From Gemmatimonadota bacterium (GTDB lineage Bacteria; Gemmatimonadota; Gemmatimonadetes; Longimicrobiales; Gaopeijiaceae): 34,255 nucleotides of DNA. A model generated the notes under the pieces. That model made no database searches. It was not told the DNA's origin and saw only the letters and a program-made list of their open reading frames with translations. Where the stretch lies: contig JAPPGM010000185.1 of NCBI GenBank assembly GCA_028874995.1, positions 1 to 34,255 of the forward strand. Reading direction: 5' to 3'. The position numbers and the translations under genes were made by a program. Below are positions 19,620-26,060 of this stretch, piece by piece; the stretch's first letter is position 1, and the number at the start of each line of letters is the position of its first letter.

Positions 19620-22241
19620 ATGAATCGCCGCTCCTTCCCCTTTCCTCCCACCATTGCCGCCCTGGCACTCGCCGGCGCAGCACTTCTGCCAGCTCTCGCG
19701 CTCACTTCCACCCCGGCCCTCGCCCAGGACGAGGGCACCGTCATGGTCCAGGGCCCCGGCTCAGCCAACTACGAGCTGGCCGCCCGCTTCGCCCCCTACA
19801 AGGTGAGCGACCTGGTCCACTCAACCCGCGTCTCCCCGCGCTGGATCGAGGACAGCGACCGCTTCTGGTACCAGTGGGAGAGCTCGACAGGCACAAACTA
19901 CTACCTCGTGGACGCCGCCCGCGGCACGCGCACCGAGATCTTCGACAACGACCGGATCGCGGCCGAGCTGACCCGCATCACGCGGGACCCGTGGGACGCG
20001 CAGCATCTGCCCATCCGCAACATCCGCTTCCTGAGTGCGGGCACGCTCCAGTTCGAGGTGCAGTCGTCGCAGGACGAGGAGATCGAGGAGGAGGAAGAGG
20101 AAGAAGACGAGGAAGACGAAGAGGACATCGAGGAGGAGCAGGAGGATGAACAGGAGGCTCCCAGCCGGCCCCGCACGCGCAAGAAGGTGCACTACTTCGA
20201 GTACGACGTGGCCACGCAGACGCTGCGCGAACTGGAAGACTACGAGAAGCCGATCACCCACCCCTTCTGGGCCAGCGTCTCGCCCGACACCGCCTGGGTG
20301 GTCTTCGCCCGCGAGTTCAACCTGTGGATGATGAGCTACGAGGAGTACGAGAAGATCCTCGAAGCGCGGCGCGGCAAGACGGGAGATGAGGCGGAGAAGG
20401 CGGAGGAGGACACCGAAGTCGAGGAGGTCCATCTTACCACCGACGGTGAGCGGCACTACTCGTGGGGCTTCGAGGGCCGCGGGGCGAACGACGAGGAGAC
20501 CGAGAAGGAGTTCAAGAAGCGCCAGTCCTCGGGCGTCGTGTGGTCACACGATTCCAGGTACTTCGCGCTCACCCGGTCGGACAGCCGCGAGGTCGGCGAG
20601 CTCTGGGTCGTCCACGCGGTGGGCAACAAGCGTCCCAAGCTCGAGACCTATAGGTACTCGATGCCCGGCGAGGAGCACGTCGCCCAGACCACGGTGCACG
20701 TCTTCGACATGGAATCCCGCGAGATGAAGCACATCGACGACGGTCCCTGGAAGGACCAGCGCATGGGGATCTACCGGGACACCAGCACGCCCTTCAGCTT
20801 CGACCCGTCCGAGATCAGGTTCTCGAAATGGCTCTCGGACCGGAACGAACTCTACTACTACCGCCACAGCCGCAACCTGCACCGGGCCGACGTGCTGAGG
20901 GCCGACCCCGCCACCGGCGAAGTGACCGTGGTGATCGAGGAGCGCCTGAACACCTACGTCGAAATCCTGTCTCCCTACCGCCTCGAAAACGGCGACCTCT
21001 TGTGGTGGTCCGAGCGCGACGGCTGGGCGCACCTGTACCGCTACGCTGCCGACGGCACGGTCCGCAACCGGCTGACCGAAGGGCCCTGGCACGTGAGCGG
21101 CATCAGCGGCGTCAATGAGGAGGGCGGATACGTCCTGCTGCGCGCCAACAACCGCGAGAAAGGGGAGGATCCCTACTACTCGCACCTCTACCGCGTCGGC
21201 CTGGACGGACGCGGACTCACGCTCCTCAACCCTGGAGACTACGACCACCAGGTCTCGGTGAACGACGACGCCACCTACTTCGTCGACAACTACTCGCGGG
21301 TGAACAGCGTCCCGGCCGCAGCGCTCCACGACGCCTCCGGCCGCAAGATCATGGACCTCGAGGAGGCCGACTTCTCCGCACTCATGGACGCCGGCTACGA
21401 GCACCCCGAGCCCTACACCGTCAAGGCCGGGGACGGCGTGACCGACCTGTACGGCGTCATGTACAAGCCCTACGACTTCGATCCCGCGAAGAAGTACCCG
21501 ATCGTTGCCTACGTCTATCCCGGCCCGCAGACCGAGTCGGTCAGCAAGGCGTTCTCGCTCAATCCCACCGAGCAGGCGCTCGCCCAGTTCGGCTTCATCG
21601 TGATCACGATCGGGAACCGCGGTGGCCATCCCAACCGTTCCAAGTGGTACCACAACTATGGGTACGGGAACCTCCGCGACTACGGTCTCGAGGACAAGAA
21701 GGTCGCGATCGAGCAGCTCGCCGACCGCCACGGCTTCATCGACGCCGACCGCGTCGGGATCTACGGCCACTCGGGAGGCGGCTTCATGTCCACGGCCGCC
21801 ATGCTCGTCTACCCCGACTTCTTCAAGGTCGCCGTGTCGTCCGCCGGGAATCACAACAACGACGTCTACAACAACTGGTGGTCCGAGAAGCACCACGGCG
21901 TGAAGGAGGTGAAGGACTCCACCGGCGCGGTGACCGGCTTCGAGTACTCCATCGACCGCAACTCCGACATCGCCGCCAATCTGAAGGGGCACCTGCTCCT
22001 GACGACCGGGGACATCGACAACAACGTCCACCACGCGGGGACCTTCCGCATGGCCGAGGCACTCATCCGGGCAAACAAGCGGTTCGACTTCTTCATCTTC
22101 CCCGGCCAGCGCCACGGCTTCGGGAACATGAGCGACTACTGGTTCTGGCTCAGGGCGGAGTACTTCGTGAAGCACCTGCTGGGGGACACGCAGTGGAACG
22201 TGGACATCCTGGAACTGCAGGGGGAGCGGCCGAAGGGGTAG
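19620..22241 (+). CDS. Secreted S9 family (DPP IV-like) peptidase, copy 2
   Basis: This 873-residue paralogue of the peptidase at 14190-16799 is about 80% identical by eye across most of its length. The start at 19620 has GGAGA upstream and leads into a signal peptide ending near PALAQ. The beta-propeller is again interrupted by an acidic run (residues 152-179), longer than in copy 1. The catalytic residues are Ser718 (GHSGGG), Asp800 (IDNNVHH) and His832 (GQRHGF). It follows the permease by 114 bases with a possible own promoter but no strong -35/-10. The duplication is recent enough to retain near-identical C-terminal halves but old enough for signal peptides to have diverged. Confidence 0.94.
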   Translation: MNRRSFPFPPTIAALALAGAALLPALALTSTPALAQDEGTVMVQGPGSANYELAARFAPYKVSDLVHSTRVSPRWIEDSDRFWYQWESSTGTNYYLVDAARGTRTEIFDNDRIAAELTRITRDPWDAQHLPIRNIRFLSAGTLQFEVQSSQDEEIEEEEEEEDEEDEEDIEEEQEDEQEAPSRPRTRKKVHYFEYDVATQTLRELEDYEKPITHPFWASVSPDTAWVVFAREFNLWMMSYEEYEKILEARRGKTGDEAEKAEEDTEVEEVHLTTDGERHYSWGFEGRGANDEETEKEFKKRQSSGVVWSHDSRYFALTRSDSREVGELWVVHAVGNKRPKLETYRYSMPGEEHVAQTTVHVFDMESREMKHIDDGPWKDQRMGIYRDTSTPFSFDPSEIRFSKWLSDRNELYYYRHSRNLHRADVLRADPATGEVTVVIEERLNTYVEILSPYRLENGDLLWWSERDGWAHLYRYAADGTVRNRLTEGPWHVSGISGVNEEGGYVLLRANNREKGEDPYYSHLYRVGLDGRGLTLLNPGDYDHQVSVNDDATYFVDNYSRVNSVPAAALHDASGRKIMDLEEADFSALMDAGYEHPEPYTVKAGDGVTDLYGVMYKPYDFDPAKKYPIVAYVYPGPQTESVSKAFSLNPTEQALAQFGFIVITIGNRGGHPNRSKWYHNYGYGNLRDYGLEDKKVAIEQLADRHGFIDADRVGIYGHSGGGFMSTAAMLVYPDFFKVAVSSAGNHNNDVYNNWWSEKHHGVKEVKDSTGAVTGFEYSIDRNSDIAANLKGHLLLTTGDIDNNVHHAGTFRMAEALIRANKRFDFFIFPGQRHGFGNMSDYWFWLRAEYFVKHLLGDTQWNVDILELQGERPKG

Positions 22242-22296: not shown

Positions 22297-22324
22297 TTGA
22301 CGTGGTTCGACGCTGTGTTAACAT
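22297..22324 (+). promoter_or_regulatory. Sigma70-like promoter of the TAC-like locus
   Basis: TTGACG at 22297-22302 and TAACAT at 22319-22324 are separated by 16 bases. They stand upstream of the toxin remnant and the antitoxin. It is one of the better promoter matches in the window. TA promoters are normally repressed by their antitoxin, so an operator is expected here; none is certain. Confidence 0.55.
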
Positions 22325-22365
22325 ATGACTTACCATGAAAAGATCAGTCGAACGCACGGACCGCA

Positions 22366-22591
22366 GTGCGACCCCCGGAGTATGAAGGTCGCAGGCTCAC
22401 GATCCGGTGCATGGAGCGCGCAAGCGGGCGCTGCCCGGCCGGGAGGTTCCTGGACGAGCTTCCCAGGCACGAACGGGCGCGGGTGATCCTGATCTTTCGG
22501 ATGCTCGGGGATCGTGGACCTCTTCGATAGGGCAATCGCGATGAAGTCCGAATTCGATCGCCACAGGAAGGAGAACGATGGAAACCAGTGA
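22366..22591 (+). pseudogene. Broken HigB/Gp49-like toxin gene
   Basis: A GTG-started frame (22366-22530) encodes 54 residues. Its segment GRCPAGRFLDELPRHERARV resembles the N-terminal half of HigB/Gp49-type RelE-fold toxins, and it ends at TAG 22528. The +1 frame then reads LFDRAIAMKSEFDRHRKEND and stops at 22591, overlapping the antitoxin start by 14 bases. That resembles the usual Lys/Arg-rich C-terminal helix of these toxins and their usual overlap with the antitoxin gene. The core beta strands with the catalytic and mRNA-binding residues are missing. I read this as an internal deletion plus frameshift in a toxin of normally about 100-120 residues. The family call is inference from short segments. 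Confidence 0.55.
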
Positions 22592-23036
22592 AGCCTGGAT
22601 CGCACGGCAGGCCAAGGACCCGGAATTCCGGCAATTCTACGAAGAGGAGCGACTGATCCTCTGGACGACCGAAGAAATCGCAGGGGCAATGGTGGATCAG
22701 GGAATCAGCCGGGCGGACATCGCAGAGAGGATCGGAACCAGCCGTGCGAACGTCACTCAGCTTCTGAGCGGATCCCGAAACATGACTCTGCGGAGCCTGG
22801 CCCGGCTCGCACACGCCTGTGGAATGCGGGCGGTCATTCAACTCGAAAACATGGCCGACTCGGTCTTTACTCCCGCCGAAGACCACGCAACCGCGTCTCA
22901 CGTCATCCAAATGAAGTTCTCGACCGAGGAGCCGCCTCCGGAGCTGCCTTTCGCCCCCTCGGTCCTGTCTCCGGTGTCGGTCGACAACGAGAACTCCGCC
23001 GACATTCTACCCTTGCGCGACCGCCTCGCCGCCTAG
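22578..23036 (+). CDS. higA: HigA-like XRE antitoxin with C-terminal extension
   Basis: This is a 152-residue helix-turn-helix protein with AAGGAG just upstream of the ATG. Residues 1-30 are charged (RQAKDPEFRQFYEEERL). Residues 31-90 form an XRE/Cro-type HTH with ISRADIAERIGTSRANVTQL as the recognition segment. Residues 91-152 form an extension beyond the usual HigA fold, rich in Pro and hydrophobic residues and ending RDRLAA. In TAC systems such an extension (chaperone addiction domain) is bound by the SecB-like chaperone and otherwise leads to degradation. The gene order toxin remnant, HTH, SecB-like supports that reading. It probably represses its own promoter. Without a working toxin it may now be a plain autoregulator. 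The gene symbol is by analogy. Confidence 0.75.
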   Translation: METSEAWIARQAKDPEFRQFYEEERLILWTTEEIAGAMVDQGISRADIAERIGTSRANVTQLLSGSRNMTLRSLARLAHACGMRAVIQLENMADSVFTPAEDHATASHVIQMKFSTEEPPPELPFAPSVLSPVSVDNENSADILPLRDRLAA

Positions 23037-23044
23037 GACCTGTC

Positions 23045-23542
23045 ATGCCCACCAACGTCGAACGTGCCAGCGTCGTGTCGCGCCATGTCCAGATCGAGTC
23101 GGCAACGCTGATCGACACCAGGATGAAATCGACCCTTCACACCATCGATCAGCCGACAGCCTTCCGGCTCGGGAACTGGTTTCGGTGCCGCCACGAACTG
23201 AGTTCGTCCAATCCTGACCGGCTGCTCGTCCACGTGGAACTGAAGTTCGAAGCGAGCCCGGAGGGAGAGACTGATTCCGAGATTACCGTGGTCGATCTCA
23301 CCGCAACTTTCCTGGCGACCTATCGCCTGGCGGACGCGAGTTCATATCCTCAAGATGCCCTCCACCACTTCGCCGATCTGAACGGGACTCTGAACGTCTG
23401 GCCGTACTGGCGCGAACTGGTCCAGTCCTTTGCTGGCCGGGCCGGTCTGCCGGGCGTAGTGGTTCCGGTTTTCAGGCCCAGATTGAAGCAGATACCCGAA
23501 CAAGAAGAGCTCCAGATACCCGAAGAGGCCGAGAGTCGCTAG
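23045..23542 (+). CDS. SecB-like chaperone of a TAC system
   Basis: This 165-residue protein resembles SecB-like chaperones linked to toxin-antitoxin modules rather than housekeeping SecB. It has an opening strand region (VQIESATLIDTRMKSTLH), alternating beta strands (LLVHVELKFEA, ITVVDLTATFLATYRL), and the SecB signature helix region at residues 116-145: NVWPYWRELVQSFAGRAGLP followed by GVVVPVF. Housekeeping SecB has a matching F/Y-PYARE...GGFPP...LPPINF layout. The gene starts 8 bases after the antitoxin stop (AGGA upstream), so the two are cotranscribed. By analogy with the mycobacterial HigB1-HigA1-SecB-like system it should protect the antitoxin. The C-terminal tail is charged and probably disordered. 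Confidence 0.8.
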   Translation: MPTNVERASVVSRHVQIESATLIDTRMKSTLHTIDQPTAFRLGNWFRCRHELSSSNPDRLLVHVELKFEASPEGETDSEITVVDLTATFLATYRLADASSYPQDALHHFADLNGTLNVWPYWRELVQSFAGRAGLPGVVVPVFRPRLKQIPEQEELQIPEEAESR

Positions 23543-23593
23543 AAATGTAAATCTCGCTTGCCATAATGTCAGGTGGAGTTTACATCGCCCCCC

Positions 23594-25129
23594 TCAACAC
23601 CCCGCCCACCCCCATCCCCGCCCACACCCCAGCGCGAATAGCGCCCCCAGATCCCGCTCCGCCACGGGACCCTTGCTGCCCCGCAGCACGATCGGCAGTT
23701 CCTCCATGGGCGGCCGATCACGCTCAAAACGGGTCCAGTCGGCCAACCCCGGGTCACCCCCCGCCAATCCCTCGAGATTCCGGCACCCCGGCGGGAACCC
23801 TCGCCGACAGGAACGCTCGAACTCCCCCGTCGCCCCCACGAAGTCCCGGTCCAGCCTCACCAGTAACACCCCGAACTCGTTGCACGCCCAACCGGACCCC
23901 AGGTCGCAGAAGTTCTGCAGCATGACCCCGCTGTAGTTGCACGCCCGCTCGGTGCCCGCCTCGCACGCGTCGCGCCAGAAGGGGTAGTACTGTCCGGGAT
24001 GATGGTCGCCGACCCCGCCCGTGAAGCTCATCGTCGCGAAAACCGTGCCCCATAGCCCCACGGTCGCGACCCGCCGCCGCGCACCTCCCCCACCCTGGAA
24101 GGTCCGCAGCAGTTCCGGCCTCTTCATCGCGATCCACTCCGCCGCCCTGTCCAGCCGCGGCGCCAGCAGGTTGAGAATCGGCACCGGCAACAGCTTGTCG
24201 TAGAAGTTCGGCGCGCCGACCGCGTCCAGCAGAAACACGCTCAGAATCACCCCGCTCCCGTACAGCAGCCCGAAGATCACCCTTCCCCCGTCGGAGCGGG
24301 GCGAGGTGGCCGGATCCGTAAAGAGCAGGTGCAGTCCCAGGAAGACCGAGATCGGGATGTAGGCGTCGTAGAAGAAGTAGATCCCCGTCGACGCATGGTA
24401 GATCAGCCCGAAGGCCAGGATGGTGAGCACCGCCGGCATGGTCATCATGGCGACGCCGAAGAGGAGCTGCGCCGGGACCGCCGCAAGGAAGATCACCAGG
24501 AACATCTGCGGCGGGACGAACTGGCTCTGCGCAATCTCGATGCCCAGCGTGATCTCGGTCTGGCCGGTCACGATCAGCGCCACCGCTGCCACGAAAAGCG
24601 CCAGCGCCGACGGGTTGAAGATGTGCCGTGAATGCCCGCCCAGCTGCCAGCGGATGAACTCCTTCCCCGCGTAGACCAGCACGATCATCGCGAACTGGAA
24701 GAAGAACCACGGGCCCGTGAACCAGAGGAAGAGGTTCACGCTGAAGATCACTGGGATCGGGCCCAGCCCGGCGGTGTAGCGCCCGCGCCGGGTCCACGCG
24801 AACAGACCCTCGAGGGCCACCGCCAGCAGCAATTGTGCCAGGATCATCGGCGCCCACGACCGCACCATCTCCACGTGCGTACCCCACCACACCAGGAGCG
24901 CCCCCTGCGCCAGCGTCTGCATCCAGTGGGGGGTGCGCAGCACAAACTCCAGGATCAGCGGCTCCCCACTCCTCCGCCGCGACGCGAAGAGCCAGCCCGT
25001 CCACACCAGGATCCCCACGACCGCCACCACGAAGCTCCAGAAGGCACTCGGCGTGGCCTGAACGGCCGGGTGCAGCTGAAAGGCCAACAGCCCGGCGGCG
25101 ATGGCACAGGGAAGGAGCAGTGGGCGCAT
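23594..25129 (-). CDS. NqrB/RnfD-like membrane protein fused to a cysteine-rich Sel1-like tail
   Basis: This is a 511-residue protein. The first 350 or so residues form about eight to ten hydrophobic helices with family-like motifs of the NqrB/RnfD group: HIFNPSALALFVAA, and LLFTDPATSPRSDGGRVIFG near residue 270. The usual flavinylation motif (S/T-G-A-T) is not seen. After a basic linker, residues of about 385-450 carry three C-x7-C units (CEAGTERAC, CDLGSGWAC, CRRGFPPGC), typical of disulfide-stabilised Sel1-like repeats of secreted Hcp proteins. The tail is therefore probably periplasmic. No other rnf/nqr genes are adjacent; the gene follows the plug-only protein by 34 bases. The role is unknown, possibly electron transfer across the membrane. 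The start at 25129 lacks a clear ribosome site, and GTG 25144 is an alternative. Confidence 0.78.
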   Translation of the reverse strand: MRPLLLPCAIAAGLLAFQLHPAVQATPSAFWSFVVAVVGILVWTGWLFASRRRSGEPLILEFVLRTPHWMQTLAQGALLVWWGTHVEMVRSWAPMILAQLLLAVALEGLFAWTRRGRYTAGLGPIPVIFSVNLFLWFTGPWFFFQFAMIVLVYAGKEFIRWQLGGHSRHIFNPSALALFVAAVALIVTGQTEITLGIEIAQSQFVPPQMFLVIFLAAVPAQLLFGVAMMTMPAVLTILAFGLIYHASTGIYFFYDAYIPISVFLGLHLLFTDPATSPRSDGGRVIFGLLYGSGVILSVFLLDAVGAPNFYDKLLPVPILNLLAPRLDRAAEWIAMKRPELLRTFQGGGGARRRVATVGLWGTVFATMSFTGGVGDHHPGQYYPFWRDACEAGTERACNYSGVMLQNFCDLGSGWACNEFGVLLVRLDRDFVGATGEFERSCRRGFPPGCRNLEGLAGGDPGLADWTRFERDRPPMEELPIVLRGSKGPVAERDLGALFALGCGRGWGWAGC

Positions 25130-25163
25130 GTGGACTGTCAGCACCCGCCGGGCCGGGCGGACG

Positions 25164-26060
25164 TCACGCCGCTCCCGGAGTCCCGTTCGCCGACGAACCC
25201 TTGCGGCGCGGCCTGCCCGGGTGCTTGCTCTTGATCTCGACCGCGCCCAGGCGGCCACCCTCGCCGTAACGGAAGAAGGCCTGCGACGGCGACAGGATGC
25301 GGATGCTCTCGATCTCGTTCGGATCCTGGTCCAGCAGCATCCTGGCAACGTGTCCCGGCAGCGACGCTTGCGTCATCCGGGCCATCTCCGTCACCGGCGG
25401 TGGAGCGTACACGATCACTCCGTCCAGCACCAGAAGGGCCGGACGGCACCCGTCCCCCAATTCGCGCAGGTCCTGGACCGATGGCCTGCGCCGCGTCGAC
25501 TGAATGCAGAAGGTGATGCCTCCGTGCCCTCCGGACTGGCGGATTTGCAGCCTGGGAGGCGCCTTCGAACGCATCACCTCCAGCAGCTTGTTGGTGCGCC
25601 CCGCCGCCTCCGCCACCTCCTCGGGGCCGATGAACTCCGATTGCCACCCCTGCCGGCGCGCCTCCGTCTCCTCGCGCCGCGTGCCCTCCACCTGAATCCC
25701 TTCCAGCTGGATCGGCCTGGGAGTGACGCGAAGGACCCAAACGTCTCCCGCAACCAGCGGCACCGAGCTCGCAAGCTCCTCGTAGGCGACATGGAAGGTG
25801 GACACCACCTGCCTGTTGCCCGGCACAGCATCGATCCTGAAATAGCCCAGACTGTCCGTGATCGTTCCGAGGCGAAGCTCCGGGAAGTGCACCACCACGC
25901 CCTCGACCGGCAGTCCCGTGACGGCGTCCAGCACCTCGCCCTCCACTGTGGTCTGGGCCAGGGCCGGTGACCCGACCCCGAGACACAACGGCAACAGCAG
26001 CAGCAAGCGCAGCCGCCCCCCGAAGCGACTACTTCGGGGGGCGGCTCCTTTCGCGCGCAT
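25164..26060 (-). CDS. Barrel-less TonB-plug / carboxypeptidase-regulatory domain protein
   Basis: This 298-residue exported protein has a signal peptide (LRLLLLLPLCLGVGSPALAQ). A carboxypeptidase-regulatory-like beta domain follows (VEGEVLDAVTGLPVEGVVV... LGYFRIDAVP), then a TonB-receptor plug-like domain ending IESIRILSPSQAFFRYGEGG. The protein stops where a receptor's beta-barrel would start, with a basic Arg/Lys-rich tail. Two Cys (FCIQST and GDGCRP) may form a disulfide. Plug-only proteins of this kind are found near SusC/SusD genes, but their function is not established. It lies third in the SusC-SusD operon. A 15-bp hairpin begins 14 bases inside the reading frame. GTG 26102 is an alternative start. 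Confidence 0.78.
   Translation of the reverse strand: MRAKGAAPRSSRFGGRLRLLLLLPLCLGVGSPALAQTTVEGEVLDAVTGLPVEGVVVHFPELRLGTITDSLGYFRIDAVPGNRQVVSTFHVAYEELASSVPLVAGDVWVLRVTPRPIQLEGIQVEGTRREETEARRQGWQSEFIGPEEVAEAAGRTNKLLEVMRSKAPPRLQIRQSGGHGGITFCIQSTRRRPSVQDLRELGDGCRPALLVLDGVIVYAPPPVTEMARMTQASLPGHVARMLLDQDPNEIESIRILSPSQAFFRYGEGGRLGAVEIKSKHPGRPRRKGSSANGTPGAA
26011..26046 (-). other. Perfect 15-bp stem hairpin inside the start of the plug gene
   Basis: The arms 26011-26025 and 26032-26046 are perfect inverted complements (AGCCGCCCCCCGAAG), with a 6-base loop. In the mRNA the hairpin starts 14 bases after the start codon at 26060. It is GC-rich and must be very stable. There is no T-run, so it is not a simple intrinsic terminator. 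It could limit ribosome loading, protect the upstream SusC-SusD mRNA from 3' decay or mark a processing site. Confidence 0.8.

Follow-up and report, generated by a model that had tools for sequence, protein, structure and literature searches.

A HigBA/SecB-like toxin–antitoxin–chaperone module with a broken toxin, probably early in decay, on a Gemmatimonadota chromosome

The module and its parts

The window, by which we mean the whole 34-kb stretch of DNA that was analysed, is an entire contig (C75) of a Gemmatimonadota genome of 4.5 Mb in 191 contigs, 96.7% complete. Its plus strand carries, in order, a promoter-like site, the debris of a toxin, an antitoxin and a SecB-like chaperone (Table 1), and this is a toxin–antitoxin–chaperone (TAC) module of the HigBA/SecB-like type. 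The original prediction had proposed just such an order of promoter, HigB-like fragment, helix-turn-helix (HTH) antitoxin and SecB-like chaperone, and both the order and its coordinates hold; homologues with the toxin gene in the same place do exist, since besides the window's remnants the toxin–antitoxin–chaperone order on one strand is found at five related loci with a full-length toxin (L002–L006). One of these, L002 in genome G018, is a complete operon at the same site and with the same two flanking genes as the window's, and here the identity to the window is 86–87% for the chaperone and 93% for the antitoxin. The closest named relatives of the window antitoxin lie in Gemmatimonadota metagenome genomes.

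Table 1. Features of the module and its flanks in the window
Feature	Position	Strand	Basis or remark
Peptidase-like gene, upstream flank	19620–22241		name by reading of the translation
Sigma-70-like promoter TTGACG-16-TAACAT	22297–22324	+	consensus scan, 9/12 matches; consensus evidence only
Candidate antitoxin operator GTTAAC-N6-CTTACC	22317–22334	+	12-bp-period direct repeat across the -10 region
Toxin N-terminal remnant	22366–22530	+	GTG start; 54 codons (22366–22527) and stop (22528–22530); about residues 1–53 plus 1 new codon
Deletion junction	22523–22525	+	152 bp fewer than in L002; TC microhomology
Toxin C-terminal remnant, final 21 residues or so	22524–22591	+	out of the frame of the N-terminal part; shares 14 nt with the start of the antitoxin
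AGGAAGGAG, likely antitoxin ribosome-binding site	22565–22573	+	sequence; function inferred
Antitoxin, 152 aa, Cro/C1-type HTH at about residues 38–83	22578–23036	+	Pfam, AlphaFold
Antitoxin C-terminal extension, residues 91–152, putative chaperone-addiction region	22848–23033	+	low pLDDT, few invariant residues
C-terminal LAA, putative ClpX degron	23025–23033	+	family ends, tmRNA tag
SecB-like chaperone, 165 aa	23045–23542	+	PDB 5mtw by profile and by fold
NqrB/RnfD-like gene, convergent downstream flank	23594–25348	-	name by reading of the translation

The toxin of L002 is 125 aa long and matches Gp49 (PF05973) at 1.2e-13 across residues 28–109; all three full-length toxins that were scanned match this family (1.2e-13, 7.5e-9 and 5.5e-7), and a profile built from five of the relatives' toxins has the HigB toxin 6af3 as a PDB match (6.8e-5). 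Compared with that intact gene, the window lacks an internal 152 bp (L002 827–978), a length that is not a multiple of three and that removes about 51 of the 125 codons, from about 53/54 to 104. The predicted HigB-like fragment is two pieces of one toxin, and with an intact operon in G018 to compare and a frame-shifting deletion in the window, the idea of a TAC-type operon with a broken toxin is confirmed. The toxin profile matches the N-terminal remnant at 2.7e-24 over 22366–22533, the C-terminal remnant is identical to L002 at 68 of 68 bp, and a Pfam search of the window's toxin pieces gives no match to PF05973, so that the full Gp49 domain is absent. With the central part of HigB deleted and the reading frame broken, a working toxin cannot come from this gene. 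In the TAC HigB of Mycobacterium tuberculosis a catalytic pocket has been proposed between K58 and K99, with two residues of the final helix, K113 and R117, also of importance (PMC9098466); by matching of positions, rather than by residue-by-residue alignment, the part missing from the window would be the one that holds this pocket.

The antitoxin exceeds the Pfam cut-offs for HTH_31 (1.2e-6), HTH_3 (1.2e-6) and HTH_26, with the first two spanning approximately residues 40–83, and its AlphaFold model has helices between residues 3 and 80. Confidence in this model is modest (mean pLDDT 61.6 over the whole of it) and falls below 50 at residues 88–95 and 97–152, so that the C-terminal extension is predicted to be disordered. 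In the extension only F114, L150 and A152 are invariant across six relatives, and in the window it contains neither Trp nor Tyr, which means that the contact motif WHRLSSYRG is absent; published comparisons of TACs, whose sources include PMC6377645 and PMC5105189, describe antitoxin extensions as having no significant similarity among the TACs that they cover. The very end is another matter. Wherever the extension is whole, the family antitoxins (window, L002–L006, L014 and L025, eight in all) finish in L-[AV]-A, the window's in LAA, and the tmRNA tag of the window's own genome reads ANSDLALAA; the tags of five relatives end in LALAA in four cases and in MAMAA in one, and in G005 the antitoxin (L004) ends ASNDLALAA where the tmRNA tag is ANNDLALAA, so that the last seven residues are equal. 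In M. tuberculosis the ClpX degron of HigA1 is C-terminal and closes with Val-Ala (PMC8165232), and CmdA, as other known TACs' antitoxins, ends in LAA (PMC11618068). At the level of sequence, then, the LAA end is a hallmark of known TAC antitoxins that recurs here, and we consider it a putative ClpX-type degron of the window antitoxin. Among 722 long open frames, a set that consists mostly of non-genes and includes the antitoxins themselves, approximately 25 end in LAA or LVA.

Outside the family, an Acinetobacter plasmid MqsA ends in EVA and a Vibrio plasmid MqsA beside a SecB-like gene in NYG; in Thiodictyon a gene of uncertain identity ends in AAS. The notion that every TAC antitoxin bears a degron end was ruled out by the latter two, and a degron is accordingly not universal among TAC antitoxins.

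For the two partners the domain searches gave a divided answer, in that the HTH_3 match expected for the antitoxin was found whereas the SecB match expected for the 165-aa protein was not, in either Pfam or NCBIfam. A canonical export SecB was rejected, as PF02556 is matched neither by this protein nor anywhere else in its genome, and the only relative with a trace of PF02556 is L005, at 11.8 bits against a cut-off of 26. The profile of the chaperone family, run both with and without a distant MqsA-linked relative (L010), nonetheless reaches PDB 5mtw, the SecB-like Rv1957, at 1.1e-4 and 1.5e-4. An AlphaFold model of the window chaperone (mean pLDDT 80.9) consists of four strands and one long helix; Foldseek places 5mtw first among its matches (E 7.3e-10), and so does VIA-align 2 (5mtw_D, Z 16.0, 134 residues, rmsd 2.3), with the SecB proteins of E. 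coli and H. influenzae next at Z of about 13. On profile and predicted structure alike the 165-aa protein is assigned a SecB fold, as the original prediction had supposed. The distant relative L010 (G089, 495–1776) is itself of some interest, since there, in a genome from another family of the same taxonomic order, a SecB-like gene comes after an antitoxin of the MqsA family (PF15731).

Both promoter hexamers are conserved in L002. Operator-like repeat pairs precede the toxin in seven of the eight loci with a whole antitoxin (window, L002–L006 and L025) and are absent from L014 despite its whole antitoxin. In the window the pattern occurs once against 0.05 expected, an expectation that is not independent because the pattern was built from these same seven sequences; it also occurs in all five viral loci described below, directly upstream of the toxin only in the close relatives L054 and L055. 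The absence from L014 and the mostly misplaced viral matches make the case for GTTAAC-N6-CTTACC a weak one, and we regard it as a candidate antitoxin operator.

A 41-bp imperfect palindrome (23545–23585) lies directly after the chaperone stop, between the convergent genes, and is near perfect in L002. Its core, TGACATAATGTCA, occurs in the genome with at most one mismatch 19 times forward and 13 times in reverse, compared with once each for the reversed control, and looks like a genome-wide regulator site.

Erosion among relatives and the age of the break

The genus was surveyed through chaperone, toxin and antitoxin searches of 23 genomes, the window's own included, and the phylum through a chaperone profile search of 395 genomes, all 23 among them, with the best eight or fewer candidates scored per genome. 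A cross-check in the genus, where all candidates were scored with a single protein, gave the same chaperone genomes except for the G020 scrap, and the genus count leaves out two weak matches to Gp49 at other places in G016 and G021, both at E 1e-4 and each with one stop. TAC traces are present in 12 of the 23 genomes and absent, at the thresholds used, from the other 11. Four modules are intact (G001, G005, G018 and G022), one has a broken toxin with whole antitoxin and chaperone, which is the window's own (G000), and seven are scraps: antitoxin residues 53–90 in G007 and 41–96 in G013, chaperone from residue 73 in G009 and from 130 in G020, antitoxin 1–49 joined to chaperone from about 73 in G008, antitoxin 1–90 adjoining chaperone from 95 in G021, and toxin 46–121 in G011. 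None of the eight broken loci has a whole toxin. Beside the toxin piece of G011, however, neither antitoxin nor chaperone was matched, so not every locus reveals which part went first, and loss of the toxin ahead of its partners is not shown for all of them.

By their flanking genes the 12 loci fall at two chromosomal sites, six at each, the first between the peptidase and the NqrB-like gene and the second between a small membrane-protein gene (script label CcmH) and a VapB-like gene; G011 was assigned by its first side only and G007 by its second side only, and the flank names (peptidase, NqrB-like, CcmH-like, VapBC-like) are readings of translations. At the second site a VapBC-like pair, again by reading, lies downstream of the chaperone in L004, L005 and L009, and the VapB-like gene persists in the eroded L009 and L029. 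In L007 (G008) and L009 (G021), deletions at the two sites, one at each, have brought the N-terminal part of the antitoxin beside the C-terminal part of the chaperone, and the join in L007 forms one open frame of 148 aa.

Across the phylum, with the best eight or fewer candidates scored per genome, the chaperone profile matches at least 12 of the 395 genomes, the window's own included, and at least five of these (G008, G009, G020, G021 and G354) have a partial chaperone only. Outside the genus, L006 (G053) carries a full-length toxin, while in L025 (G220) and L014 a single-base change of toxin frame stands beside a whole antitoxin and chaperone. Both frame changes could be sequencing errors, and a G-rich run near that of L025 makes a sequencing slip possible there; in L025 the change also brings toxin and antitoxin into one frame, so that they form a single continuous open frame. 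L014 (JAPPMB010000173.1, 4,978 bp) is a TAC of the window's family in a contig binned as Bryobacterales, and its isolate label shares the RHO3 prefix with L011 (JAPPNO010000073.1), so that transfer and misbinning are both possible.

As for its age, the toxin break in the window looks young. Over 52 codons the N-terminal remnant differs from L002 at seven positions, six of them silent (the chance of at least six silent in seven is 0.002), and with L003 as outgroup the window branch has no replacement and three silent changes (neutral chance 0.018), both chances being from unweighted site counts. A mostly silent N-terminal remnant and an identical C-terminal one suggest that most of the divergence dates from the time of a working toxin; because the toxin pieces still resemble constrained coding DNA, the toxin seems to have been lost not long ago, too recently for its partners to have had much time to disappear. 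Against L002, dN/dS (YN00 and NG86, some values by NG86 only) is 0.19–0.25 for the antitoxin, with 0.05 in its first 90 codons (NG86) and 0.26–0.32 in the extension, and 0.14–0.19 for the chaperone; these low values presumably accrued mostly before the break. For antitoxin and chaperone together, with outgroup L003, the window branch has 15 replacement and 20 silent changes and the L002 branch 17 and 18, so that the two branches do not differ (Fisher p 0.81, low power), and with outgroup L005 the corresponding counts are 3/5 against 4/6 for the antitoxin and 11/17 against 6/13 for the chaperone. We discarded branch-wise dN/dS as a proof of retention, these counts being too small to separate retention from decay.

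Known systems and mobile elements

The TAC of M. tuberculosis (HigB1–HigA1–SecB-like, Rv1955–Rv1956–Rv1957) resembles the window module in its gene order, in the HigB-type toxin of the window's relatives, in an HTH antitoxin with a C-terminal extension and a hydrophobic-Ala end, and in a chaperone whose structure is the best match to the window's. It differs in that the two chaperones are approximately 16% identical, the window extension lacks WHRLSSYRG and the window toxin is broken. The anti-phage CmdTAC of E. coli also has a SecB-like chaperone, which protects an antitoxin that is degraded by ClpP when unprotected (PMC11618068), and by sequence shares the LAA end with the window; CmdT, however, is an ADP-ribosyltransferase and not a HigB RNase, and the Gemmatimonadota module is known from sequence, not as a defence system. 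Antitoxin–SecB loci without a toxin have already been counted alongside TACs (PMC4257090), and the window is like these antitoxin–chaperone loci, as that source presents them, in combining an antitoxin and a SecB-like gene where a working toxin is absent; unlike them, it has toxin debris and an intact sister locus that reveal how, and roughly when, the toxin went.

A known phage or plasmid module was also considered and rejected, as a scan of viral contigs with the antitoxin matched 67 stretches and confirmed none. Relatives of the chaperone, 34–38% identical, are present in five viral loci adjoining other toxin–antitoxin genes; in phage records two of 50,697 matched, at 35–37% identity, and in plasmid records 27 of 72,556, none covering 80% of the query. 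Read from their translations, the viral trios resemble TACs, with a HigB-like gene and HTH antitoxin in L053, an unnamed first gene and HTH antitoxin in L054 and L055, and MqsRA-like pairs in L056 and L057, and the antitoxin ends across L053–L057 are KVA, DAA and EVA.

A module probably in decay

Judging from the intact relatives and from the TACs that have been studied, the ancestral HigB would have been a ribosome-dependent RNase and the HTH antitoxin would have repressed the operon promoter, while the SecB-like chaperone, seated on the disordered C-terminal tail, would have held the antitoxin folded and HigB thereby neutralised; in the absence of chaperone, the terminal LAA would have handed the antitoxin to ClpXP and set the toxin free. 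In the window the antitoxin frame, the chaperone frame and the promoter are all whole, and the two proteins may still be expressed and autoregulate. We believe, with a probability of about 0.8, that this is a chromosomal HigBA/SecB-like TAC in which a single internal deletion of 152 bp recently inactivated the toxin and which is early in its erosion. The surviving pair is most likely without purpose, with the module in an early stage of the erosion that its congeners display.

The original prediction went further and held that the pair had been kept and might have a new role, for example as an anti-addiction module or a chaperone-sensing repressor. The toxins countered by such a module would be the related, intact ones that congeners carry or mobile elements bring in, while the repressor would be gated by the chaperone. 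There are points in its favour, in that both genes are whole, low dN/dS (0.14–0.25) and open frames would also fit continuing selection, related full-length toxins sit in four of the 23 genus genomes, and toxin-less antitoxin–SecB loci are on record (PMC4257090). We nevertheless find it unlikely, since the break appears young, the partners too are cut or lost in seven of the 12 genus genomes with traces, and neither a second toxin nor a second antitoxin was found in the window's own 96.7% complete genome; loss of the toxin first would be expected anyway, for a cell should not keep an intact toxin once the antidote is gone. A new role is thus possible but unsupported, with nothing that we measured favouring it over decay. 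If the frame changes in L014 and L025 are real, the whole partners beside those toxins suggest that pairs without a toxin may not be merely transient, and a bolder and similarly doubtful proposal makes them a recurring, selected state in these Gemmatimonadota, serving as a chaperone-gated, self-repressing antidote against the re-arrival of the same TAC or as a reporter of chaperone occupancy. If that were true, occupancy (for example by a phage capsid protein, as in CmdTAC) would be reported through de-repression of the promoter.

Quite improbable, in our estimation, is that the deletion is an artefact of assembly or strain mixture and that the cells carry a working TAC. The deletion is certainly known from one assembled 34-kb contig, and an otherwise perfect operon is what such an artefact would leave; the junction, however, has a microhomology of 2 bp only, which is not repeat collapse, and deletions of varied extent strike the same module in seven congeners, though not necessarily as independent events. 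We give hardly any credence to the suggestion that the cells still produce the 54-residue N-terminal remnant and that it works with the antitoxin as a co-repressor or titrates it, since the constraint behind its kept start codon and its lack of replacement changes on the window branch is accounted for by the time before the break, and the only other TAC toxin fragment in the 23 genus genomes, that of G011, keeps residues 46–121.

What we have, then, is probably a module of a known kind caught early in decay, at a type of toxin-less antitoxin–chaperone locus that is already published. The original prediction did not contain the deletion or its extent, nor the LAA end, nor the series of eroded loci in the genus, and a full-text literature search returned no paper naming Gemmatimonad-, toxin-antitoxin and SecB together. 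A HigBA–SecB-like TAC that is overlooked by the Pfam SecB model is now placed in the Gemmatimonadota, and the conserved, tmRNA-like antitoxin ends of this unrelated lineage lend sequence-level support to the model in which TACs work through release to ClpXP. Two sites of one genus present a natural series of states that runs from whole operon through broken toxin with whole partners to scraps, so that more genomes could allow a direct reading of the sequence in which an addiction module of three parts loses them.
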